Origin: a virus
Strand: one strand, 5' to 3'
DNA length: 64,000 bases
Virus record (IMG/VR): IMGVR_UViG_3300036768_000767
Location: 1 to 64,000 of that record
Shown here: one piece after another, positions 44,297 through 61,538 of the stretch
How the letters are laid out: every line of letters begins with the position of its first letter
Position numbering within the stretch: position 1 is the first letter of the stretch
Program-made: the position numbers and the translations under genes
Notes under the pieces: generated by a model
Told to the model about the DNA's origin: nothing
Seen by the model: the letters and a program-made list of their open reading frames with translations, nothing else
Databases searched by the model: none

Positions 44297-44299
44297 ATG

Positions 44300-45240
44300 T
44301 GTAACGCTGAGCCTACCGACGACCCTTCACCAACTCCTCGGTAGCGCCGGGTGCGGGGAGACCTGCCCGCCCGGCACGAGGACGAACGAGCCATACAGCA
44401 AAGTTCACGCGACGACGGGACGGCGGCCGACGCGGGTAACCAACCCCGCCGAGGGGGCAGATGACCCACGTGGCGCTGTTACCTCGCCGAGACCCGGACC
44501 CCGTCACCCGCGAGGGCGGCGGGCAGATAGCTCAAGGGGATGAAGGCCGCGAGGCCGACTCGGGTGTGTGGACGATATAAAAAGCTACTCTTTTTATATC
44601 ACGGAGACGGGGCCAGACCGCGAAACGACGGGCGGGGGCGCGGTAACTCGGGGCTTGTGCGTTCTACCGAGACGGAAATCTCCATGGGAGGAAAGTGTTC
44701 GGCCGGGGAACCGGTCGGGATACTCCGCCCGTCCCGTGGCCGAAGAAGCCACTAGCGACGTGACCACCACAACGACGGCCGCACGACAAATCGGGACCCT
44801 CTCCCACGCAAGGACCGAAGGTTCTCGAGGAGAGGGAATGCGCGGTGTCGGTAGGACGCTCGGCGGGTTGAGGAGCGAAGGTGTTTCAGGGCCACACGGC
44901 GGGGCCAGCGGTTTAGGAAATGCGGTTCTACGAGCGATGCGGGCCAGCAGGGCAGTTGGCTGCATTCCCCGTCCTGGGGGGACGACAGCATCCACCGAGG
45001 GAGGTGGCGGTCATTTTCGTGCGCAGTACCACCCGGAAGGGGAATGCACGGACGTGGCCCTGAAGGTTATGGTCGGCGGCCCGGGGGAGCCTCTGCCGTG
45101 AGGCGGAAATCCCCCAACCTGATCTATCCTTGACGTGGAGCCGGTCGCCCGTGCGGGGCGAAAGGACCGGGGGGCCGGACAGGGGCTATTTCGCACCCGA
45201 CCCTTCGAGCACGCCCTGTTGGTAGCAGGGGGGGGGCTCC
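44300..45240 (+). ncRNA. Candidate large structured RNA
   Basis: About 940 bases lack a credible gene but are filled with stems: 44313-44319/44338-44344 (7 bp), 44346-44375, GGCC-GCGA-GGCC (44546-44557), an AT-rich 11-bp hairpin (44575-44601), and CCGG-GGAA-CCGG (44703-44714). Further along are CCCTCTCC/GGAGAGGG (44797-44804/44829-44836) enclosing another hairpin, and a long-range 9-bp stem 44962-44970/45039-45047 with two hairpins inside. A double hairpin lies at 45083-45115. The GNRA loops read GNRA only on the plus strand, which gives the orientation. Size and style recall large phage RNAs such as GOLLD or ROOL, but I recognise no known family. Confidence 0.55.
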
Positions 45241-45252
45241 GCTTAAAGACCT

Positions 45253-45936
45253 ATGACCCCGTACCTCGTCAAGTCGCCACGCCACCTCGTCCAACTCCTG
45301 GCCTGCAACATCCTGAACCGCGGCTACCTGTTCTACTGCACGTCCTGGATCCCGGACGGGAAGGACCCGCTGCCCATCGACGCCCGCCTCCTCCTCATCT
45401 ACTCCGCGCACCTGCCGAAGGAGAAGCAGTACCGCCGGCGGAAGGCCGGGCTCGCGTCGGTCCGGTATCTTCGCTGCGGCCAGCTCTGCGTGCTGCTCGC
45501 GACGAAGGGCCAGTCGCCGTTCTTCGAGCGCGAGGCGTGGAAGGACGTGCGCGAGGTACCGCTCCACATAGCCGGCTACAGCCTGCGAGTGGCAAAGGAC
45601 ACGGGCAAGGTCAGTGTCCGCATCCACGCCGAGGCCCAGAGGAAGATGCGGCGGGAGATGACCGAGAAGGCGGCGTGGGACGTCCGGTACTGGGAGGAGC
45701 GGATTCTCAACATCCCGTTCCTGGCCTTCAGTGGCGTGAGGGACAACGTGTTCGCGCTCGTGCGGCACCTAAACGCCTGCCGAAAGAGTCTGAGGAAGCC
45801 GCCGGTCGAGTGGAAGCGGTGCGTGCGGAAGCGGATCAAGCCGGAGCCGGTGTTTCTACCGACACCGCCGGAGGTCGATGAGGCGGTGAAGTGGTACGGT
45901 GGAGAGGTTGGTCGCGCACGGCGTAACCTTGAGTAA
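45253..45936 (+). CDS. Protein of unknown function beside the structured RNA
   Basis: A 227-residue basic protein beginning MTPYLVKSPRHLVQLLACNI, with FYCTSWIPDGKDPLPIDARL and a C-terminal LRKPPVEWKRCVRKRIKPEP. The plan (beta-rich start, basic helical end) suits an RNA- or DNA-binding protein. It is the only gene adjacent to the RNA candidate and on the same strand, so a functional link is worth testing. No ribosome site better than GACCT-type sequence is seen before the ATG. Confidence 0.6.
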   Translation: MTPYLVKSPRHLVQLLACNILNRGYLFYCTSWIPDGKDPLPIDARLLLIYSAHLPKEKQYRRRKAGLASVRYLRCGQLCVLLATKGQSPFFEREAWKDVREVPLHIAGYSLRVAKDTGKVSVRIHAEAQRKMRREMTEKAAWDVRYWEERILNIPFLAFSGVRDNVFALVRHLNACRKSLRKPPVEWKRCVRKRIKPEPVFLPTPPEVDEAVKWYGGEVGRARRNLE

Positions 45937-48632: not shown

Positions 48633-49550
48633 CTACGCACTGAAGGTGCCATCGCTTCTTTTTTTCTTCGGATTGGGCTCCGGCTTCGGTACCGCCGTGA
48701 CGAACGGCGAGCGTGAAGGTTCGATCGGGATGCCCGCACTCGGTTTCTTCTCCTGATATTTCTTCATCATGCCCACCAGGGCTCGCTTCATCTCCTGGAC
48801 TTTCTGGATTAAGTGCTTCGCGACGGCTGCCGCCTGTTTCGGCGGATAGGCCTTCGACTTGTACTCCTCGAAGTCGTTGTCGAACATCTTCAGCCATTCC
48901 AGGTCCGCCGACGCGATGTAGTTGTCCCCGCGGGCTACGATCAGAACCGCGAGGTTCATGATCTTCACGCTGTCTGGCGTGTTTCCGGCGTCCTGGTCGT
49001 CGCCGAGCCGCACGAGGTACGCCCGCTGAGGTTCCGTGAGTAACACCCGCTTGAGCCGGCCCAAGAACTCGTTGGTCACGGCCACGTCGTTTCGCTCGCC
49101 ACGGTTGACGAGCCGGAAGGCTTCGGCTACGACGGCCTCGGGGAATATGACCAACTCATCCTGGCGGCTCTCCTCGAGCACATACTTCGGCACCTCGGTG
49201 ACGAGCACCCGGCGTACACCGACGTCCATCCCCAACAGCAGAGACACGGCGAAGCCGGTGCCGTGGGCCGGTTCCCCGAGGTCGCTGCCAATGGTGCCGT
49301 CTTCCGCCAGGCCGTAGAGCATGTCCAGGCAATTCTGCAATTCGTTCGAGCAGCCGTACAGCCGCAGCATGGCATCGAATGTCTCGCGGTTAGGCTTCTC
49401 CAGCAATCCGCTCTCGACCTTCGACAGGTAGTCGGCCTTCACCCCGAGTTTTCCCGCCACGGCTCGGAGCGACTCCTCCGGAAACTGCGTGAGGCGGATC
49501 CGGCGCAGGAGATTGTTGAGCAGGTTCGGCGTCTTGTTCGACTCGTCCAC
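48633..49550 (-). CDS. XRE-type transcriptional regulator
   Basis: The GTG at 49550 with GGAGGG upstream starts a 305-residue protein (the frame is open further up, but that part looks non-coding). Residues 10-60 form an XRE helix-turn-helix (ESLRAVAGKLGVKADYLSKV). The remaining 240 residues include helical segments with VRRVLVTEVPKYVLE and a Lys/Arg-rich tail, possibly a sensor domain. It diverges from the mobilization operon and is the obvious candidate to regulate it. Confidence 0.75.
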   Translation of the reverse strand: MDESNKTPNLLNNLLRRIRLTQFPEESLRAVAGKLGVKADYLSKVESGLLEKPNRETFDAMLRLYGCSNELQNCLDMLYGLAEDGTIGSDLGEPAHGTGFAVSLLLGMDVGVRRVLVTEVPKYVLEESRQDELVIFPEAVVAEAFRLVNRGERNDVAVTNEFLGRLKRVLLTEPQRAYLVRLGDDQDAGNTPDSVKIMNLAVLIVARGDNYIASADLEWLKMFDNDFEEYKSKAYPPKQAAAVAKHLIQKVQEMKRALVGMMKKYQEKKPSAGIPIEPSRSPFVTAVPKPEPNPKKKRSDGTFSA

Positions 49551-49881
49551 CGCATGACCCTCCGTTTTCAAACAGCATAGTAGCGCTCGGCGAATTGGTA
49601 TAATAATCTTTTTTTTGGAAACAGTATCTTGACTTCGGATCAGCGGGGTGGATAATTTCAAGTAGTTAACCGTCTACTACCCCACGCAACCTGACAAACT
49701 TCAAGCTCAGCGACTCACGGTCTTCCCAGCCAGGAAGCCCTCACGATGAGGGTCCGTCCCACCGTGCGCGCGTGGAGAAAACCGCGATAACATTTCTCCA
49801 CCCGCCCCCGCTCAGCTTGCCCTTCGGACGCAGCCGGTCCACCCCGGGCCGACCGTCATAGACCCCCTTGGAGGCCAAGCC
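49551..49881 (+). promoter_or_regulatory. Divergent control region with plus-strand promoter
   Basis: TTGACT (49629-49634) and GATAAT (49651-49656) are separated by 16 bases and point towards the vWA-kinase-mobilization operon. The run TATAATAATC near 49599 could serve a second promoter. This stretch is much richer in A+T than the genes on both sides. No operator repeats are obvious by eye. Confidence 0.6.
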
Positions 49882-50559
49882 ATGGCCGACATCTCGAGAG
49901 TGCTGAGCGGGATGCTGAACCGCCGCACCCGCCGCGTGCTGAAGCTCGGAAAAGACCTGCACCGCTGCCGGATCGCCCTCGACCTGAGCGGCTCGACCGC
50001 ACACTACCACCCGCGCATCAAGGCCCTCTGGGCGCAGCTCATCTCCAAGGTCGCCGCGAGCCCGGCGATGGCTGCCCAGTTCCTGATCGGCGCCACCGTC
50101 ATGTCCGAGAAGGTGCTCTCCTCGCCCTACCAGGAGCCGGGCAAGGCCGAGCTGCCCGAGATCAAGGCGGGCGGCACCTCGCCCATCGCCCAGATGGTTC
50201 GCGACCTCACCGCCGCCGACGCGGACAAGTGTGCGATGGACGGCGTGACCATCGCGATACTGCTCACCGACGGCCAGTACATGGAGAGTGACGAGGAGAT
50301 GAGGGCCGCGATCGCGGCGTACCGGGCGGCCCAGGACGAGCGAAACATCCACGTCTTCCCCGTCGCGTTGGGGATGAAGAAGATGGTGAACTGGAACGTG
50401 CTCAACGCGCTTTCGGTCAAACACACCCCGGCGCACAGCCCGGACCTCGACTTCGACGCCATCTTCGAGGCCGCCTTCGGCCTGATCGAGTCCGCGTCCA
50501 TCAGCGTTCAGCGGATGGCGTCCGTCAAGACCATCGACATCAACAGGAAGCCGGAGTGA
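49882..50559 (+). CDS. von Willebrand factor A domain protein
   Basis: The 225-residue protein is essentially one vWA domain: the MIDAS motif ALDLSGST near residues 33-40, a Thr in KAGGTSPIAQM, and IAILLTDGQYM. It resembles TerY-type proteins. It sits 4 bases upstream of a protein kinase gene; vWA-kinase pairs are known as a conserved partnership (with a phosphatase in the TerY triad, not seen here). How it serves a mobile element is unknown. Confidence 0.85.
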   Translation: MADISRVLSGMLNRRTRRVLKLGKDLHRCRIALDLSGSTAHYHPRIKALWAQLISKVAASPAMAAQFLIGATVMSEKVLSSPYQEPGKAELPEIKAGGTSPIAQMVRDLTAADADKCAMDGVTIAILLTDGQYMESDEEMRAAIAAYRAAQDERNIHVFPVALGMKKMVNWNVLNALSVKHTPAHSPDLDFDAIFEAAFGLIESASISVQRMASVKTIDINRKPE

Positions 50560-50563
50560 CGCC

Positions 50564-51985
50564 GTGGATCTCTCTGCCCCGACGCTCGGGAAGCTCACCA
50601 CCGCCGGCATCCTCGGCCGCGGCGGGATGGCGGTGGTGTTCGCCCTGGAGGCGACGCCGCGCGACCCGCTCCGGCCGTGGCGGTACGTGGTGAAGATCCC
50701 GCACGACGTCGGGGTGATCCAGAGGCGGCTCGTCGCCTACTATGTGATCCGTACCCGGCTGGCCGACGTGCACGACGCCTGCCGCTTGGTGGACATCGCT
50801 CACGACGGTCCGGGCGGGAGGCCAATCGGCCTCGTACTCGAACGCGTCTGCGGCCTGCCCCTCGGGGAGGTGGCCGCCCGCAGCAGGCTCCGCCTCGGTC
50901 GGCGGCGACGGATCGGCCTCGCCGCGAAGCTCGCCCGGGCCGTCAATGCCTGCGTCTCACGCGGCATGATCCCCGGGGACTTGAACCCGAACAACGCGCT
51001 GGTCGCCCTCGGGTCCGCCCGCGACCGACTGAAGCTGATCGATACCGACGACCTGAGCCTCGACGCCCGCGACCCCGCCACCGGGCGAGTGGTGAGCTTC
51101 CACAGCCCGATGGCGGTGAAGGCGCACGTCGCGCCCGAGCTCTGGGGGAAGGCCGACGCCCGGCACACCGAGGCCACGGTCTCGTACGCCCTGGGCGTAC
51201 TGGAGTACCTGCTCCTGACCGGCCGGCACCCGTGTGCCGTCCCGGACGACGCGGCCGTCGACGCCAACCTCGACCGCGGCGTGTACGCCGACCCGCCGGC
51301 CTGGGCGCCGAAGGCGATCAGGGACCTCATCGCCGCGTCATTCGGCCGGGACAGTGGGCGGCCGAAGCTCGCCGACTGGGTCGGTGGGTTCGGCGCCTGG
51401 GAGAAGACGATCCGGAGGCAGCGATACGGGGTCTTGGGGTGTGGGGGCGCGGCCCTGGTCACCGCCGTGGTCGGCTTCGCCGGCCTGCCACCCTCCAGCC
51501 CGACACCGCCGCCGGCGACGGTCGTGGCGCGACCGCTGGCGGCCCCCGAGGTCGAGCGGAACCAGCCCGCGATCGTGGCGAAGGTCGACAAAAGCCCGCC
51601 AGTTTTGGATCGTACCCCGCGACCGAGCGCCGAACCCGCCACGAACCCAACCCCACCGCCGGTGGCCCCGAAGGCAGAAAGGCCCTCAACGCCCGACCGC
51701 CTGCGCGTGGCCCCGAAGGCGGACTACTGGGCGCGATGGGCGGCCGTCCCGGACAGGCTGTTCGCGACCGACGCGACAGCGGAGCTCGCGCTGAAGCGAC
51801 TGGCTAGTGATGTCCGAACCACGCTGGACGAGGTGAGGCGGGCGGGCAAGCCGGTCCCCGCCGAGCGCGAGGTCGCCGGGCTCCTGGACCGGGTCCAGCC
51901 CGGGCTGACGCTCGACGAGTACCGCGCACTCTGGGGGCCGCTGCTCGGGCACCTGCGGGCGCTCGAGGATCTGCTGACTGACTGA
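50564..51985 (+). CDS. Hanks-type protein kinase, membrane-anchored
   Basis: The 473-residue protein has a kinase-like domain: glycine loop LGRGGMAVVFAL (residues 17-28), the ATP lysine in YVVKIP, GDLNPNN in place of the usual HRDxxxxN near 138, and IDTDD where DFG would be. Since the catalytic Asp of GDLNPNN and the metal-binding Asp remain, activity is possible. A membrane segment (GCGGAALVTAVVGFAGL) follows, then a Pro-rich linker and a helical C-terminal domain. GTG start. Confidence 0.8.
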   Translation: MDLSAPTLGKLTTAGILGRGGMAVVFALEATPRDPLRPWRYVVKIPHDVGVIQRRLVAYYVIRTRLADVHDACRLVDIAHDGPGGRPIGLVLERVCGLPLGEVAARSRLRLGRRRRIGLAAKLARAVNACVSRGMIPGDLNPNNALVALGSARDRLKLIDTDDLSLDARDPATGRVVSFHSPMAVKAHVAPELWGKADARHTEATVSYALGVLEYLLLTGRHPCAVPDDAAVDANLDRGVYADPPAWAPKAIRDLIAASFGRDSGRPKLADWVGGFGAWEKTIRRQRYGVLGCGGAALVTAVVGFAGLPPSSPTPPPATVVARPLAAPEVERNQPAIVAKVDKSPPVLDRTPRPSAEPATNPTPPPVAPKAERPSTPDRLRVAPKADYWARWAAVPDRLFATDATAELALKRLASDVRTTLDEVRRAGKPVPAEREVAGLLDRVQPGLTLDEYRALWGPLLGHLRALEDLLTD

Positions 51986-52016
51986 CGGGCAACCTTTCAG
52001 AGAAGGGAGAAGGGTC

Positions 52017-52373
52017 ATGGCTGAAAAGTCTACGAACGGCGCGATGGTGCAGGTCGGTGTCAAGCTCCCCCAGGACGTTGCGGAGCGGCTTGAGCTGTGC
52101 TGGAAGAAGGCGGGCGCGGAATCTCGGTCGCACTTCGTGCGCAGCGTCCTCACCGCCGTGGCAAACGGCGAGGGGGCGGTTCCGGCTTCGACCACGACAG
52201 CCATCGCCTCGCAACCAATCCAGTCGTCCGACGACGGGCTCCGCCGCCTCCTCGCCGAGGCCGTGCTGTTCCTGCTCTCGTCCCAGTGGCGTGTACAGTC
52301 GACCGAAGAGGCCGCGACGCTCGTACGCGAGGTGTTCTTGAAGGGGGTGTTGCGTGAGCATCTCGGCGAGTAG
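52017..52373 (+). CDS. Ribbon-helix-helix protein, likely relaxosome accessory
   Basis: The 118-residue protein has an RHH pattern near its start (MVQVGVKLPQDVAERLELCW then ESRSHFVRSVLTAV) and a helical C-terminal part. Its gene overlaps the relaxase start by 20 bases. Such MobC-type proteins bind the transfer origin and help the relaxase nick it. The nick site would probably lie near; I could not pick it out. AGAAGGGAGAAGG precedes the ATG. Confidence 0.72.
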   Translation: MAEKSTNGAMVQVGVKLPQDVAERLELCWKKAGAESRSHFVRSVLTAVANGEGAVPASTTTAIASQPIQSSDDGLRRLLAEAVLFLLSSQWRVQSTEEAATLVREVFLKGVLREHLGE

Positions 52374-53286
52374 GGCGGAGCAGTATATCGACTGGCTCTT
52401 CTACATGGAGGCGAAGAACTCGGGCGCGGGCATCAGGACGTCCGAGGGGGCCCAACTCCTCGGGTTCGTGGGAGAGAACCCCAGCTTCGACGAGGTGGTC
52501 TGCTTCAGCAACAACCTGCGGCCGGATGGGAGCTACTTCCTCCGGCCAAGGTCCGACCAGGGAACCCACTACTGCTACGTGCTCCACTGCCACGCCTCGG
52601 TGAGCGTGCTCCAGGCGGCGAATGATCTCGACTTCACGCGGCGGCTCCACCAGGAGGGATTGGCGGCCGCGGTGGAGGCGATGAAGGTCCTGGACGGTCG
52701 GTGCCAGGTGCGCTTCCGAAAAGACGGCGAACTCATCCTGCGAGACGCTAGCCCGGTCTGGATCGCGTTCACCGGGACCATGAACCGCAAGGGCGAGCCG
52801 TGCCTCCACTGGCACGTCTACACGGCCCGCACCGGCGTAACGCCCGACGGGCTGAGCCGGTCGGTCGAGAGCCCGCGGCGGACGTTCTTCAAGCCGCAAA
52901 AGGAGATCGACCGCTGCTTCCAGGAGGGGCTCGTGATGCGGCTGACCGAGAAGCTCGACATCCCGGCGAAACTGGTCGGCGGGACGTGCACGGTGCCGGC
53001 GGTGCCCCCGGAGCTGATGGCAGGCATGTGCACCCGCCGGCACGACGCCATCGAACACCTGACGCGGCGTGGAAAGGAGCTGACGCCGGAGAACATCCGG
53101 AGGGCGCTCATCGCCACGCGGCCGGAGAAGGTGATGCCCCGGACCCTCGCCGAGCAGGTGGAGGGGTGGAGCGAGCAGGCGAAGGCGATCGTCCCGGACT
53201 TCAGCGTCGAGCGCCTGCGTGAAGAACAGCGGCAGCAACAGCAGCGGCAGCAATACCAGCAACTCAGCGGAGGGCTCAAGATGTGA
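52354..53286 (+). CDS. TrwC-like HUH relaxase (compact)
   Basis: The 310-residue protein starts SISASRAEQYIDWLFYM, the typical TrwC/TraI opening with the candidate catalytic Tyr at about residue 11. It has the HUH pair in EPCLHWHVYTARTG (His 152 and 154) and a Gln-rich C-terminus. It lacks the helicase domain of full-length MOBF relaxases, so only the nicking/strand-transfer domain is present. GTG start inside the RHH gene. It overlaps the coupling protein gene by 4 bases. Confidence 0.75.
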   Translation: MSISASRAEQYIDWLFYMEAKNSGAGIRTSEGAQLLGFVGENPSFDEVVCFSNNLRPDGSYFLRPRSDQGTHYCYVLHCHASVSVLQAANDLDFTRRLHQEGLAAAVEAMKVLDGRCQVRFRKDGELILRDASPVWIAFTGTMNRKGEPCLHWHVYTARTGVTPDGLSRSVESPRRTFFKPQKEIDRCFQEGLVMRLTEKLDIPAKLVGGTCTVPAVPPELMAGMCTRRHDAIEHLTRRGKELTPENIRRALIATRPEKVMPRTLAEQVEGWSEQAKAIVPDFSVERLREEQRQQQQRQQYQQLSGGLKM

Positions 53287-54824
53287 AAGAACCAACAGAG
53301 AACGAGATCCTGATGGGTTACGCGCTGGTGACGCTCGGCATCTACCTGCTCGGCAGGCTCTACGACTCCCTCTTTGACAGTAAGGTCAAGTACAAGGTGG
53401 TCCGCGGCCAGCCACTGGGGCCGCCTCGGCGGAACGGGCCGAAGCCGAAAACGGGTCGGTGGGTTCGCCTCGGCGCGGACTGGCTCGACGAGGGCTTCGG
53501 GGTGCTCGGCGTGCTGATAGCCGGGATCCCCGGCGCGGGGAAGGGCCTGCTCATCAAGGTCTTACTTCGGAGCATCCTCAACCTGATGGACGGGCGGGGC
53601 GTCCACCGGGTTGTCATCTTCGATATCGCGCGAGAGATGCCGCGGTTCGTCTCGGCGTTCGCCCCGGCGCACGTCAACATCTGGATCCTTGACCCGTTCG
53701 ACGCCCGGTGCACGGCGATCGACTACGCCCGGATGCTCCGCACCGCCGCGGATTTCCTGAACTTCGCTACCCGGATGGTCCCGTCCACACCGAGAAACCC
53801 GCAACCGTTCTTCGAGGACAGCGCCCGGCTCCTCTTCATGCGAACGCTCCAGCTTCTCAACCACTGCTCGCCGGGAAACTGGGAGCTGATCGACCCGTGC
53901 AAGATACTGCGGAATAAGGCCCTCGCCCGCGCCCTGTTCCAGCGCTTCCCGGCGTTCTCCGACGCAATCACCCACCTGACCGACAACGACGCCGCCCGGT
54001 CGGTCTACGCCACGCTGCTCGCCAAGCTCGGGCCGCTCGAGCCGGCCTTCGCCTGTCTGGCGAAGGCGAAGGAGAAGCGCACGGTGGAGGAGTTCATGGC
54101 GAGCGAGGATGTCTGGCTCATGGGCATGGACGACAGGAACGCCGAGGCGTGCGCCACCCTCTACGCCCACTTGTTCGACGCCTTCACCGACCGCGCCCTG
54201 TCGCAGGTCACGTTTGACCAGAAGCACTGGCTATTTCTCGATGAACTAAGGGCCCTGCGGCCGTTGCAGTGCGTGACCAAGGTCGCTACCCGGGGCCGCA
54301 AGTCCGGCTGCTGCATGGTCAGCACGATCCACGACCGCTTCGGGATGTACCACGTCTACACGCGTGACGTCGCGGAAGAGCTGTTCGCGTGCCACGCCTA
54401 CCACCTGTATCTACGGCTCGGCTCTCCCGACATGTCATCCTGGGCCAGCGCCAATCTTGGCGAGTGCGACTGCATCGAGCGGCTCACGACCAAGAGCGGC
54501 CACGTCCACGAGACCGTCACCCGCCGCCGCAACGTGTCGCCGTCGGAACTGGAGAATCTGCCACCAGCCGACTACGCCGGCGATCTGGTATCCGGCGCGG
54601 TCCGGACCCCGGACCCGAACCTGCCGCCCGCGTTCTTCACCTGCACGTTCCGGGACGACGTCGACATCCCCAACGACGGCCGCCCGCTGATGAAGAACTT
54701 CGTCCCGCGGCCGGCGAGCGACCAGGATGTCGAGGCCTTCACCCTCGACGACCTCATGCGGCTCAACCTGCCCGACACGCCCGAGATCCGCAAGACCATC
54801 AAAGACGACCACAAGACCCCCTAA
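53283..54824 (+). CDS. Type IV coupling protein (TraD/VirD4-like ATPase)
   Basis: The 513-residue protein has one N-terminal membrane helix (LMGYALVTLGIYLLGRL), Walker A AGIPGAGKGL near residues 79-88 and Walker B HWLFLDELRAL near 312-322, then TRGRKSGCCMVSTIHDRFGM. This is the layout of coupling proteins that bring the relaxase-DNA complex to a type IV secretion channel. No channel genes are visible in the window, so the element would need a helper. Confidence 0.85.
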   Translation: MKEPTENEILMGYALVTLGIYLLGRLYDSLFDSKVKYKVVRGQPLGPPRRNGPKPKTGRWVRLGADWLDEGFGVLGVLIAGIPGAGKGLLIKVLLRSILNLMDGRGVHRVVIFDIAREMPRFVSAFAPAHVNIWILDPFDARCTAIDYARMLRTAADFLNFATRMVPSTPRNPQPFFEDSARLLFMRTLQLLNHCSPGNWELIDPCKILRNKALARALFQRFPAFSDAITHLTDNDAARSVYATLLAKLGPLEPAFACLAKAKEKRTVEEFMASEDVWLMGMDDRNAEACATLYAHLFDAFTDRALSQVTFDQKHWLFLDELRALRPLQCVTKVATRGRKSGCCMVSTIHDRFGMYHVYTRDVAEELFACHAYHLYLRLGSPDMSSWASANLGECDCIERLTTKSGHVHETVTRRRNVSPSELENLPPADYAGDLVSGAVRTPDPNLPPAFFTCTFRDDVDIPNDGRPLMKNFVPRPASDQDVEAFTLDDLMRLNLPDTPEIRKTIKDDHKTP

Positions 54825-54844: not shown

Positions 54845-55045
54845 ATGCCGGACATTCGGCTGATCCACGACTGCAGCTTCGCGACGACCAAGGCCGTGCT
54901 GGAAGTGTTCGCCCTCGACGAGCGGGAGTACCGCGAGGCCTTCGACCAGGTGATCGAGATCATCAAAGCCGGGTTCCACACCTACGCGGAGTTCAAGGCC
55001 CGGGAGATGGTCCGGCTGGCGAAGGCCCAGCCGGACACCAACTGA
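54845..55045 (+). CDS. Small helical protein of the mobilization operon
   Basis: GAAGGAGGTG precedes the ATG. The 66-residue product (STATTKAVLEVF-like start, EAFDQVIEIIKAGFHTYAEF) is helical and acidic-to-neutral with no known family. Its strong ribosome site and place between coupling protein and membrane protein suggest a real operon member. Confidence 0.6.
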   Translation: MPDIRLIHDCSFATTKAVLEVFALDEREYREAFDQVIEIIKAGFHTYAEFKAREMVRLAKAQPDTN

Positions 55046-55074: not shown

Positions 55075-55554
55075 ATGAAGAGACTGCTGCTGAAGCTCAC
55101 CGACAAGCACTACCTGCTCCACGTCGCGACCTACGCGACCATCTTCCTCGTGTACGTGTTCATGTTCTTCGCCGCACTCGTCGCGGCCCGGGTCGCGGTC
55201 CCCAACGGCCTGAACGCCCTGAAGGCCCGCGGGATCCCGAACGTCCTGAACACCACGCCGACGTGGTACTTGGTCGCCTGCGGCCTGATGGCGCCGCTGC
55301 TCACACTCGCGTTCTTCGTGTTCATGTTCCGGAGGTGCCTCATCCCCTGGGTCAACAAGAAGCTCATCGAGCGCGGCCGGCGGCTCGACGCCCTGGAAGG
55401 GAAAAAAGTCTGGAAGGGAAAGAAGCGCCGCCGCGCTGAAGACACTACTCCGACACCTCCGCTACGACGCCGACGAATGCGAGGCGATGGTCGTTGGGCT
55501 GTACGACGCCGACGAATGCGAGGCGATGATCGACGCTTCGGATTCCTCGATTGA
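55075..55554 (+). CDS. Two-helix membrane protein with possible frameshift near its end
   Basis: The 159-residue product has two membrane helices (TIFLVYVFMFFAALVAARVA and VACGLMAPLLTLAFFVFMF). Its last 30 residues are very arginine-rich because a 27-base direct repeat is read in an unlikely frame. In the +1 frame the same bases give an acidic tail (two copies of YDADECEAM) that stops at 55563 and looks more natural. A run GGGAAAAAAG near 55400 could mark a sequencing indel or frameshifting. Confidence 0.6.
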   Translation: MKRLLLKLTDKHYLLHVATYATIFLVYVFMFFAALVAARVAVPNGLNALKARGIPNVLNTTPTWYLVACGLMAPLLTLAFFVFMFRRCLIPWVNKKLIERGRRLDALEGKKVWKGKKRRRAEDTTPTPPLRRRRMRGDGRWAVRRRRMRGDDRRFGFLD

Positions 55555-55897: not shown

Positions 55898-56041
55898 ATG
55901 AACCAGAAGTACTTGAACCCCGAGCAGATCGCAGCCCGCTGGGGCGTGCCCTGCGAGGAGCCGGAGCTCGACGGGGTCGTGGTGCAGGAAGTACCGGCGG
56001 GACGATGGTCGCTCGCGGTGGCGGGAGGGGGTGGAGGATGA
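55898..56041 (+). CDS. Very small protein before the excisionase-like gene
   Basis: An ATG at 55898 with GGGGGGATG-type leader starts 47 residues (NQKYLNPEQIAARWGVPCEE) whose beginning looks like half of a helix-turn-helix. Its stop overlaps the next ATG (ATGA). Possibly a control protein for the integrase module. Confidence 0.45.
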   Translation: MNQKYLNPEQIAARWGVPCEEPELDGVVVQEVPAGRWSLAVAGGGGG

Positions 56042-56241
56042 CCGAAACACTCCTCACGAAGGAAGAGGCTTGCCAGCTCCTCCGCGTCTCGTCCCGCACG
56101 CTGGACCGCTGGCGGGCGATGTGGCGGGCGAGGAAGCTCAATCCGCTCGGCGAGGTGAAGATCAGAAAACAGCCCCGCTTCCGCCGCGAGGCCGTCGAGA
56201 AGCTCCTTACCACGCCGAAGCTGTGGCTCCAGAACGCCTGA
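56038..56241 (+). CDS. Excisionase-like HTH protein (MerR/Xis type)
   Basis: The 67-residue protein is a helix-turn-helix of the excisionase type: LLTKEEACQLLRVSSRTLDR, then a basic wing (RKLNPLGEVKIRKQPRFRRE) and a final helix. Its stop is 3 bases from the integrase stop, tail to tail. Excision control is likely from family and place. Confidence 0.75.
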   Translation: MTETLLTKEEACQLLRVSSRTLDRWRAMWRARKLNPLGEVKIRKQPRFRREAVEKLLTTPKLWLQNA

Positions 56242-56244
56242 CGC

Positions 56245-57480
56245 TCACTTCAGCCCGAGCCCTTCCATCGCCTTCACGGCGTCTTCGAGAGTATGGAAAC
56301 TCTCGTCGTCGTAGGTTGCCATCGTGAGCCGGATGTCCGAGTGCCGCATGAAGAGCTGGCGGATGCGGGCCGGGACGCCCGCCTGCCCGAGCATCACGTT
56401 CGCGGTCATGCGGAGCGAGTGGAAGTCGGCGTCGCCCTGGGCCGTCTTGTACGGGATGCCGGCGAATTTCAGATCCTTCTCCATCATTCGCGCCGACGCC
56501 TGCGGCACGTCGAACAGCAAGTCGTCCGGTCCCTTATTCGTGTCCCGAATCCAGTCCGCCAACTCCTGAGCGAACGCGGGTACGAGAAGCAGCCTCACCT
56601 GCTGGTCGTTCTTCGTCAGCTTCCCCGGAATCGAGAGTCGGGGGAACGGCTTCTTGTCCAACTCCAGGTGGTGGGGGCGGAGCGAGCCGATCTCCCCGGC
56701 CCGAAGTCCGGTGTAGACCGCCGTCTTGTAGATCAATGCCCGCTCCCGACCGAGAAGGACGTACCTGGCGACGGCCTCATCCCGCTTCTTCTGGGCACGC
56801 TCACGTTGCCGGACGCCGGGGCCGACCTCGGTCCCGTACCGTTCGTGATACTGAGCGAGCGGTCGGGCCCTCGCGGCGTCAAGGAGTTTCTGGATCTGCT
56901 CGACCGTAAGGGCCCTTCGCTCCTTCGTCTTCTTGCTGCCCGTTGGGGCGTCCACGCGCTCGAGCGGGTTGCCCTCGATGCGGTCCTTCTTGACGAGCCA
57001 CGCGACGAAGACGGAGATGGCCGAGAGGTGCTTCTTCTTATTGCCCGAGGAGCCCTTGACGCCCGCAAGGTAGTGGTCGATTGCCTCGTGGGTGAGGTCG
57101 GTGAGCGAGTTCAGGCCGCCGACGAACGCTCGCAGGATGGCTTCCTTTCGGTCCTTGTCCTTCTCCGACTTCCCCCTCGCCCGCATGACGGGCAGGAACT
57201 CGTCGAGGTGCTCGGAGATCTTCCGGTCGTAATGCTTCTGCCGGGGGTCGACGATCTTCGCCTTTGTCAGGTCCTTCGTCCGCAGGAAGTCGGCTAGCAT
57301 CGCCTTGGCTGCCGTCTTGTCCGCGCAGAGCGGAACCTTCTTCTGCTTCGTTCCCTCGCGGTAGTACGCGTACCACTTCTCCGAGGTGCGAACTCGTTTT
57401 TCAGCACCGCTTGTTTTCGGTGGTACCCTCCGGCCGTTCAACCACCACTCGGTGTACTTCACCTTGATGAGCGTAGCCAT
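56245..57480 (-). CDS. int: Tyrosine recombinase (phage integrase)
   Basis: I chose the ATG at 57480 (MATLIKVKYTEWWLNGRR). The 411-residue enzyme has an N-terminal arm-binding region, a SAM-like core-binding domain, and a catalytic domain with TGLRAGEIGSLR (first Arg), DFHSLRMTANVML (His-x-x-Arg), and FMRHSDIRLTMATY (second His and the Tyr nucleophile). It inserts the element at a tRNA-Ser gene, whose 3' fragment with arm repeats lies just upstream. This style of integrase is, as far as I know, typical of planctomycetes. Confidence 0.92.
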   Translation of the reverse strand: MATLIKVKYTEWWLNGRRVPPKTSGAEKRVRTSEKWYAYYREGTKQKKVPLCADKTAAKAMLADFLRTKDLTKAKIVDPRQKHYDRKISEHLDEFLPVMRARGKSEKDKDRKEAILRAFVGGLNSLTDLTHEAIDHYLAGVKGSSGNKKKHLSAISVFVAWLVKKDRIEGNPLERVDAPTGSKKTKERRALTVEQIQKLLDAARARPLAQYHERYGTEVGPGVRQRERAQKKRDEAVARYVLLGRERALIYKTAVYTGLRAGEIGSLRPHHLELDKKPFPRLSIPGKLTKNDQQVRLLLVPAFAQELADWIRDTNKGPDDLLFDVPQASARMMEKDLKFAGIPYKTAQGDADFHSLRMTANVMLGQAGVPARIRQLFMRHSDIRLTMATYDDESFHTLEDAVKAMEGLGLK

Positions 57481-57498
57481 GCCGCACCCCACGGGTTC

Positions 57499-57622: not shown

Positions 57623-57635
57623 CTCGTGTTTCAGC

Positions 57636-57708
57636 GGAGAGGGCGGGATTCGAACCCGCGGAGGGGTTTTACCCCCTCGCCGCTTTAGCAAAGCTCCATC
57701 TTTGATGG
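57636..57708 (-). other. tRNA-Ser(GCT) 3' fragment, the probable att core
   Basis: On the minus strand the segment contains an anticodon loop TTGCTAA, a long variable arm (GAGGGGG/CCCCTC type), a perfect T arm (CGCGGGTTCGAATCCCG) and the 3' acceptor strand CCTCTCC. The matching 5' acceptor strand GGAGAGG and D arm are missing upstream, so this is not a working gene. It is the sort of tRNA end that an element carries to rebuild the host gene after integration. Confidence 0.75.
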
Positions 57709-58165: not shown

Positions 58166-58366
58166 ACCGCGATGAAGGTATCACATGCGTGATGGTCTGG
58201 TAGCGAGTGAAGTGCGGGTGCCATTACGCTAAAGTCGGACCTGTGACACTATCAGGGTATGGCATTCTTCCTCCGCCATGTCCTCCCGTTCAATCTACCC
58301 TGCCAGGGGTAAATACACTTTTCGCGCCAGCAATCGGGCGCAGCACACAAGACAAATCAGTTCGTT

Positions 58367-58446
58367 CGGAAAGTAGGGTAATGGCTCATCCTGGGCTAAC
58401 GTGGCTTTGGACCACGAGACTGCCGGTTCGAGTCCGGCCTTTCTGA
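58367..58446 (+). tRNA. tRNA-Gln(TTG)-like gene with enlarged D region
   Basis: Acceptor CGGAAAG (58367-58373) pairs with CTTTCTG (58439-58445) with one G-U. The anticodon stem CGTGG/CCACG holds the loop CTTTGGA with anticodon TTG, and the T arm GCCGG/CCGGC is perfect. The D region is about 4 bases too long (26 bases between acceptor and anticodon stems), so function is likely but not certain. Confidence 0.65.
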
Positions 58447-58452
58447 TCAAAT

Positions 58453-58550
58453 GGCGAGATGGTGTAACGGCAGCCGCGCCCGGCTCAGGCCCGGGTATCT
58501 TCGGATGTGGGAGTTCGAGTCACTCTGACGCAGGTTCGAGCCCTCCCGCC
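58453..58550 (+). tRNA. tRNA-Leu(CAG)-like gene, irregular
   Basis: The anticodon stem CCCGG/CCGGG with loop CTCAGGC (anticodon CAG) is perfect. GGCGAGA at 58453 pairs with TCCCGCC at 58544 except for one A-C mismatch. The region between anticodon arm and T arm is longer than normal for tRNA-Leu and contains two TTCGAG T-loop-like sequences (58514 and 58535). It could be a degenerate tRNA or two fused pieces. Confidence 0.45.
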
Positions 58551-58560
58551 CCAGCCACAC

Positions 58561-58633
58561 GGTGTCGCTAGCTCAACGGCTAGAGCGCCGGGTTGTGGCC
58601 CCGGAGACTGCGGTTCGATTCCGCAGCGACACC
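58561..58633 (+). tRNA. tRNA-His(GTG)
   Basis: A complete cloverleaf: G-1 (58561) facing C73 (58633), acceptor GTGTCGC/GCGACAC, D arm, anticodon loop with GTG in GGGTTGTGGCCCC, and T arm CTGCGGTTCGATTCCGCAG. CCA is not encoded. The extra G at the 5' end is the identity mark of tRNA-His. Confidence 0.92.
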
Positions 58634-58658
58634 CCATCGTCCTCCCGGCTTATGCCTC

Positions 58659-60569: not shown

Positions 60570-61538
60570 CTACGCCGCTAACGCCACTTCATACGCCCGC
60601 TGCTTCAGCCTCGATCCCTCGCCGAACCAAGCAGACTCGAGCCGAGCCGCCTCGCTCCGTTGCCCCCGCGTGTGATCGACCCAATCCGTGAGTGCGTTGT
60701 ACGCCCCCCAGTACGTGCCGCGAACGCCCGGGATGTTCGCCCCCGGCGCGTTGTAGTACGCTTTCAAAACCGCCTCCCAAGCTTTCGAGCCCTTACCCGC
60801 CTTCTGCTCGTCTTCGGTTACTTCCAGTACCTCGCGGACAAAAGCGGCTAGGCCGTCAACCGGAAGCCCGCGCGACGCCATTCGCTGGAAGTCCTGCACC
60901 GTCGCGGTGAAGGTCTGTGCCGCCATGTCCACGGTACGCTTTACCAGGTCTAAACCCGCTTCTACCTTCGATGTGTGCCGTACCCGCAAACAGTCTTCAA
61001 GGCCGCTGTTGGCCCTGCGGTCCGCCCGGCTGAGGGTGTTCCAGCACACTACGCGGATGGTGGTGAACTGAGCCCGCACAGCCTGGGTGCCGTCGTGGGC
61101 GTTGCTCAGAAGGAAATAGCCTCGAACGCGGTCGCCATTTAGAACGTCGGCTTCAGCGTCCTTCAGTCTCGCGAGAACCCACACCCGTCGACCGCCCTTG
61201 AGGGAGCCAGCTGTTTCGAGCTGGCAGGCACCAGACGAAACGAACCAATCGATGAACTCGAAGGCCCGGGCGTTCTGCAGCGGCTGATAATCCTTCCCGA
61301 CGATTCCAAGAATCGTGTGATCTGTGTCGCGGACGACGGCCCGGTGAGTCTTCACCTCACGGGTGTTGAGCACGCCTTTGTCGGAGATGAGGGCCCCCAG
61401 CGGCTGAAGGGAGACCGTCCAATCAAGACCAGCCAAGCGAATTGCCTCCTCAACGCTCGGTGCCTCAGGGAGAACGACGCCCAACCGATGCCATGCGGGG
61501 GTACGGACGGTAAAGCCTGTTTCGAACTCGTGTGTCAT
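60570..61538 (-). CDS. DUF932 phage/plasmid-like protein
   Basis: I chose the ATG at 61538 (MTHEFETGFTVRTPAWHRLG) because GAAAGGAGG precedes it. The 322-residue protein is a classical DUF932/TIGR03299-type protein: TPAWHRLG at the start, VVRDTDHTILGIVGKDYQPL, and NALTDWVDHTRG near the end. Its function is not established; it is often expressed early by phages and plasmids. It is driven by the promoter at 61602-61633. Confidence 0.88.
   Translation of the reverse strand: MTHEFETGFTVRTPAWHRLGVVLPEAPSVEEAIRLAGLDWTVSLQPLGALISDKGVLNTREVKTHRAVVRDTDHTILGIVGKDYQPLQNARAFEFIDWFVSSGACQLETAGSLKGGRRVWVLARLKDAEADVLNGDRVRGYFLLSNAHDGTQAVRAQFTTIRVVCWNTLSRADRRANSGLEDCLRVRHTSKVEAGLDLVKRTVDMAAQTFTATVQDFQRMASRGLPVDGLAAFVREVLEVTEDEQKAGKGSKAWEAVLKAYYNAPGANIPGVRGTYWGAYNALTDWVDHTRGQRSEAARLESAWFGEGSRLKQRAYEVALAA

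Follow-up and report, generated by a model that had tools for sequence, protein, structure and literature searches.

A temperate phage genome carrying what appears to be the core of a planctomycete integrative mobilizable element

We describe a phage genome that we read, with moderate confidence, as a circular and unintegrated molecule from a temperate phage of planctomycetes. On this favoured reading it carries the core of an integrative mobilizable element (IME) of planctomycetes, a gene set that would most likely enable helper-dependent transfer. The window analysed here is a stretch of 64,000 nucleotides, bases 1-64000 of a 66,340-base IMG/VR virus record (66.3 kb). The earlier note on this DNA had placed a relaxase, an RHH accessory protein, a coupling ATPase and a vWA/kinase pair on the same DNA as a complete phage structural gene set, and this observation is borne out.

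Genome organization and extent of the module

Phage genes in the window comprise a primase, TerL, portal, head maturation protease, scaffold and major head protein, together with a 1489-aa tape measure, a tail fibre and endolysins. These packaging, head, tail and lysis genes, accompanied by an integrase, are the complement of a temperate phage. The structural and lysis genes of the siphovirus set proposed earlier are present, and the siphovirus type itself is likely as judged from the genes. The record ends have an exact 64-bp repeat in common, and joining them creates an uninterrupted 303-aa ORF, a member of the tandem gene family at the join; because of this repeat and this ORF we consider the genome probably circular, at about 66,276 bp. 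The tandem family consists of ~5 related genes with 71-88% DNA identity, occupying 63.3-66.3 kb of the record and positions 1-400 of the window across the circular join. That both record ends fall inside this family bears on the closure of the circle, and mis-closure there is unlikely. Assignment to the phage-plasmids was considered and rejected, as an integrase and attP are present and neither ParA nor ParB is among the listed Pfam matches of the window proteins. In agreement with the earlier view that no secretion channel is encoded, no T4SS channel family was found among the 25 of 29 Pfam families listed in a scan of 74 window proteins.

The module spans about 44.3-57.7 kb, and its GC content is 64.7% versus 58.3% in the phage part; GC3 is likewise higher in module genes than in phage genes (0.85 versus 0.76, P=7e-6). 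The five genes reported earlier (vWA, kinase, RHH, relaxase and coupling protein) lie exactly at 49882-54824 and form one operon. The extent had been drawn too narrowly, since the module also holds a DUF932 gene, an HTH regulator, an excisionase-like HTH, an integrase, attP, a group-II-like RNA and an AcpG-like protein. Its features are as follows (window coordinates, strand):

44297-45252, +, conserved noncoding region, probably a circularly permuted group II RNA; D5/D6-like element near the 5' end (44342-44408)
45253-45936, +, 227-aa AcpG-like protein, the RNA's neighbour; 55% identity in phage B
46458-47228, -, DUF932 protein (Pfam DUF932 E=6e-10); 41% to its counterpart in the G313 element
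48633-49550, -, HTH regulator divergent from the operon (HTH_31 E=2e-6); phage B homolog at the same place
49772-49801, no strand, perfect 9-bp inverted repeat with 12-nt loop; candidate oriT or operator
49882-50559, +, vWA-domain protein (VWA E=0.05; MIDAS residues); 31% to the G313 vWA
50564-51985, +, Ser/Thr protein kinase (Pkinase E=6e-6, 26.2 bits)
52017-52373, +, RHH accessory protein (RHH_1 E=0.02)
52354-53286, +, TrwC/MOBF relaxase domain, 310 aa, without helicase (TrwC E=3e-18)
53283-54824, +, TrwB/TraD-type coupling ATPase with one apparent TM helix (TrwB_AAD_bind E=4.7e-37)
54845-55045, +, small module-conserved protein; 39% to phage B, 35% to G251
55075-55554, +, hydrophobic protein with two apparent TM helices, from sequence
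56038-56241, +, HTH_17 excisionase-like protein, from sequence and an HTH_17 match among the window proteins
56245-57492, -, tyrosine integrase (Phage_integrase E=5e-12; phrog_1 E=9e-35)
57635-57694, -, attP core; all 60 nt match the 3' portion of planctomycete tRNA-Ser(GCU)

The kinase score of 26.2 bits lies below the Pfam cut-off of 31.7. An intact MIDAS (DLSGS...LTDG), found by reading the sequence, lends weight to the weak vWA match, as does the recurrence of the vWA-kinase pair in chromosomal elements. A small gene similar in size to the window RHH gene sits before the relaxase in many of these elements, and small hydrophobic proteins are also encoded by the modules of phage B and of the Planctomycetia genomes G251 and G313.

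A second phage with the same gene order

Phage B, a second and diverged IMG/VR record of 67,172 bp, also has the coupling protein and was recovered by scans with the helicase and with the DUF932 gene at 60570; single-protein scans of viral and genome contigs returned no relatives when the query was the coupling protein, the portal or a lysis-side gene, and a search for a third phage with the module found none. The earlier note had allowed that phage and mobilization module might never co-occur in relatives; phage B carries both, and its lysis genes, module and integrase follow one another as in the window. Identity to the window is 60% for the helicase, 55% for the AAA protein and the AcpG-like protein, 36% for the primase, 30% for the tape measure, 28-51% for the lysis-side genes, 29% for the relaxase-like protein and 23% for the coupling protein, and the portal and terminase of phage B gave no BLAST match to their window counterparts. 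After its AcpG-like gene, phage B has small genes, an HTH gene, an RHH-like gene, the relaxase-like gene, a hydrophobic protein, the coupling protein and an integrase, and it lacks the vWA and kinase genes. The lysis-to-module junction (~44 kb) is present in both independent records, and on the far side of the module the order integrase, DUF932, helicase is collinear when the two genomes are read as circles.

Three contigs of the Planctomycetia genome G295 are of note: one holds a prophage resembling phage B (portal 73%), another carries a B-like AcpG gene, and the last encodes a coupling protein. The portal of the window phage had no match in 397 Planctomycetia genomes, and the lack of any prophage with such a portal among them weighs against the favoured reading. 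As separate observations, the B-like portal gene in G295 (contig C1186) has an in-frame insertion of ~384 aa, probably an intein, and phage B encodes a 2466-aa FG-GAP/RHS-repeat protein.

Chromosomal and plasmid relatives of the module

Relatives of the coupling protein, with up to 31% identity, were found in 39 of the 397 Planctomycetia genomes, where the surrounding set consists of a small RHH-type gene, a relaxase, the coupling protein (T4CP) and often an integrase. The adjacent vWA-kinase pair recurs at seven chromosomal loci (G224, G301, G054 twice, G313, G181 and G149), G224 and G301 being nearly identical. In G313 the DUF932, vWA, kinase, relaxase, T4CP and integrase genes follow the window order, and no phage structural genes were recognised between DUF932 and the integrase; three tandem tyrosine recombinases stand just left of this element. 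Terminase searches in 22 module-bearing genomes found no such gene near the module; the shortest distance was ~45 kb, in G149.

The planctomycete plasmid pK2D_1 (CP036351), typed as mobilizable, shares with the window a MOBF TraI, an AAA/T4CP-type ATPase, XerD, an AcpG-like protein and the conserved noncoding region, and has no annotated channel. It differs in being a plasmid with ParAB, a replication initiator, metal resistance and a large TraI, and in having no annotated phage genes. Because the same set occurs in Planctomycetia chromosomes, mostly without a terminase nearby, we identify the window module by sequence comparison as the core of a planctomycete IME; the GC3 difference, the chromosomal elements and pK2D_1 together indicate that the phage carries this core. 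Like described IMEs (PMC5704250), the window combines a terminal tyrosine integrase, an att site at a tRNA 3' end and mobilization genes (a relaxase and the optional coupling protein) without a mating channel. In contrast to them, it sits in a phage genome with a full structural set, its MOBF relaxase is short and altered, and it adds the vWA/kinase pair, the AcpG-like protein and the group-II-like RNA.

Integration site and probable host

The integrase at 56245-57492 is the only one detected in the window. Next to it lies the 60-nt attP core, which is identical to the 3' part of the chromosomal tRNA-Ser(GCU) in 4 of the 397 Planctomycetia genomes, the identity ending at the anticodon stem. 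Since this tRNA-Ser 3' block adjoins the integrase, the record is identified as the attP form, i.e. the unintegrated genome, and because of the identity to the Planctomycetia tRNA the host is probably a Planctomycetes bacterium. In the element of G224 an intact tRNA-Pro stands beside the integrase, in the position of the window attP; direct att repeats were not found for the G313 and G224 elements. We propose that the IME part provides the integrase, the excisionase-like HTH and attP, and that it would most likely direct insertion of the lysogenic phage at the tRNA-Ser(GCU) 3' end.

Two further observations concern tRNA sequences. Contig C10 of genome G042 holds a displaced 3' half of tRNA-Ser(GCU) whose 5' side differs and which looks like the att site of another element, and window positions 58366-58636, beside attP, contain a tRNA-His and a tRNA-Arg that was called by ARAGORN without Rfam support.

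The noncoding RNA and its neighbouring protein

The 956 nt of noncoding DNA 5' of the 227-aa gene are conserved in phage B, in blocks that are 83-85% identical. In the majority of 20 Planctomycetia loci a sharply bounded conserved block lies about -1400 to -400 upstream of AcpG-like relatives, and a profile made from planctomycete loci only matches the window at 44602-44790 (E=4e-7) as well as phage B (E=1e-10). The group II D5/D6 model RF00029 scores 28.6 bits in the window, below gathering, and 42-49 bits, above gathering, in all three relatives scanned; in relatives these matches sit on the 5' side of the conserved block. An Rfam scan of the phage B copy gave no match. The region is probably a circularly permuted group II RNA. 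Such an RNA of ~900 nt, accompanied by AcpG, was described by Roth et al. 2021 (PMC8637638); the window resembles that system in having a D5/D6-like element near the RNA 5' end, in its length of ~900 nt and in its position beside a 220-260-aa protein of unassigned role, and differs in its setting, namely planctomycete phages and MOBF elements; Planctomycetes go unmentioned in that paper's main text. Within the GC-rich noncoding region the window also has an 11-bp perfect A/T-rich hairpin (GATATAAAAAG-CTACT-CTTTTTATATC, 44574-44600) that is absent in phage B.

The AcpG-like family is found in 72 of the 397 Planctomycetia genomes, including 29 of the 39 with the coupling protein (Fisher P=2e-16), and in 19 of 50 cases no more than 63 kb separate the gene from that of the coupling protein. 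Comparison of the protein with Thermus TTHC007 (AcpG) gave hhalign E=0.24, a value that does not establish homology, and its structure prediction was too poor for use.

Relaxase, coupling protein and the case for transfer

The TrwC match of the window relaxase (PF08751) covers residues 82-278, and the family profile matches TrwC/TraI structures with good alignment (E=3e-49). Canonical planctomycete relaxases of this family retain YY, DLTFSxPKSVS and the His triad. The window relaxase keeps HxH (LHWH), with the first metal-binding His replaced by Gly and the motif-II Asp by Cys, and in phage B both positions are Gly, such that the His triad and motif-II Asp required in TrwC/MOBF enzymes are complete in neither phage. 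One N-terminal Tyr of the window relaxase aligns with the YY motif, in a stretch where the alignment is weak. In the divergent relaxases of G313 and G251 the His is present and the Asp absent. Structure prediction was unusable (mean pLDDT 36). In HUH enzymes, such residue changes should weaken or alter catalysis, which is not proof of its loss.

The coupling protein has an AAD-binding ATPase domain with Walker A (GIPGAGKG) and Walker B (LFLDEL) motifs and, read from the sequence, a hydrophobic helix near residues 11-30; ATPase domain, Walker motifs and N-terminal TM are those of T4SS coupling proteins (TrwB/VirD4). No oriT was identified, the sole candidate being the 9-bp inverted repeat at 49772-49801, which 9 of 1000 shuffles matched and for which no counterpart was recognised in relatives.

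From these parts we propose that the relaxosome-type set (RHH, TrwC-like relaxase and TrwB-like coupling ATPase) would stand under the HTH regulator and probably be controlled by the vWA/kinase pair, and that the excised circle would most likely be processed by this set and handed to the mating channel of another element. The outcome would be a second, helper-dependent transfer route beside virions. Mobilization is the weakest step of this proposal because the relaxase active site is altered. Transfer by helper-dependent conjugation, as the earlier note had it, is not supported in that form, given a short relaxase with an altered active site and no identified oriT; taken alone, we put such mobilization slightly below an even chance.

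The strongest competing account, in our estimate a serious if rather unlikely one, is that the relaxase-like and coupling-like genes have been repurposed and are no longer conjugative, the integrase and attP being the useful part. The relaxase-like protein might then serve in DNA binding or copy control, and the ATPase in DNA translocation or exclusion. That both phages lack the same His fits this account, as do the absence of a helicase domain from both relaxases and the divergence of the phage B relaxase to the point that Pfam no longer recognises it. However, both phages retain a coupling protein with Walker motifs, HxH and a Tyr near the relaxase N terminus are kept, and the related divergent chromosomal forms of G313 and G251 retain the third His. 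About as unlikely, or marginally more so, is an ambitious form of the preferred reading, in which a lineage of temperate planctomycete phages, durably merged with an IME, would travel both as virions and as ssDNA via a helper channel, using a two-His relaxase and including the RNA and AcpG-like protein in the transfer package.

Degenerate relaxase motifs and a module GC above that of the phage would also be expected had an IME inserted into a phage ancestor and the module since become a functionless, drifting hitchhiker. We regard this as improbable, since drift would not keep open frames and gene order in two phages whose relaxases and coupling proteins have only 23-29% identity, and the only detected integrase belongs to the module. 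The change in GC at the module edges (about 44 and 57.7 kb) might suggest a chimeric assembly of a phage with an unrelated mobilizable element, but this is very improbable and was rejected because the independent phage B record is collinear and the window record closes into a circle. Equally implausible is a MADS-like defence system with the kinase as mad6 and the coupling protein as mad8 (PADLOC E=4e-5 and E=9e-8, ten proteins scanned): both matches are weak and cover one domain each, the TrwB match is far stronger, and neither the methyltransferase nor other parts of the mad1-8 set were found within the module.

Relation to known systems and significance

Phage and mobilization functions are known to share a molecule in P1-like phage-plasmids, two of which carry a relaxase or oriT, as do many P1-like-derived plasmids that have lost phage genes (PMC10879196). 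The window genome differs from these in being integrative (attP, integrase) and probably planctomycete, and in that phage and mobilization functions have stayed together in two diverged phages, neither of which has lost its head and tail genes. In the open-access literature searched, a scope that leaves most subscription papers outside, we came across no description of an IME core that is conserved among integrative phages.

The tie between a group II-like RNA and MOBF elements across Planctomycetia makes the role of this RNA testable. Phages and conjugative elements are usually seen as separate routes of gene transfer. Conservation of an IME core that includes the only detected integrase, in phages that retain their head and tail genes, shows that the two kinds can merge and remain joined while their lineages diverge far, and one DNA molecule may be equipped for two routes between cells.
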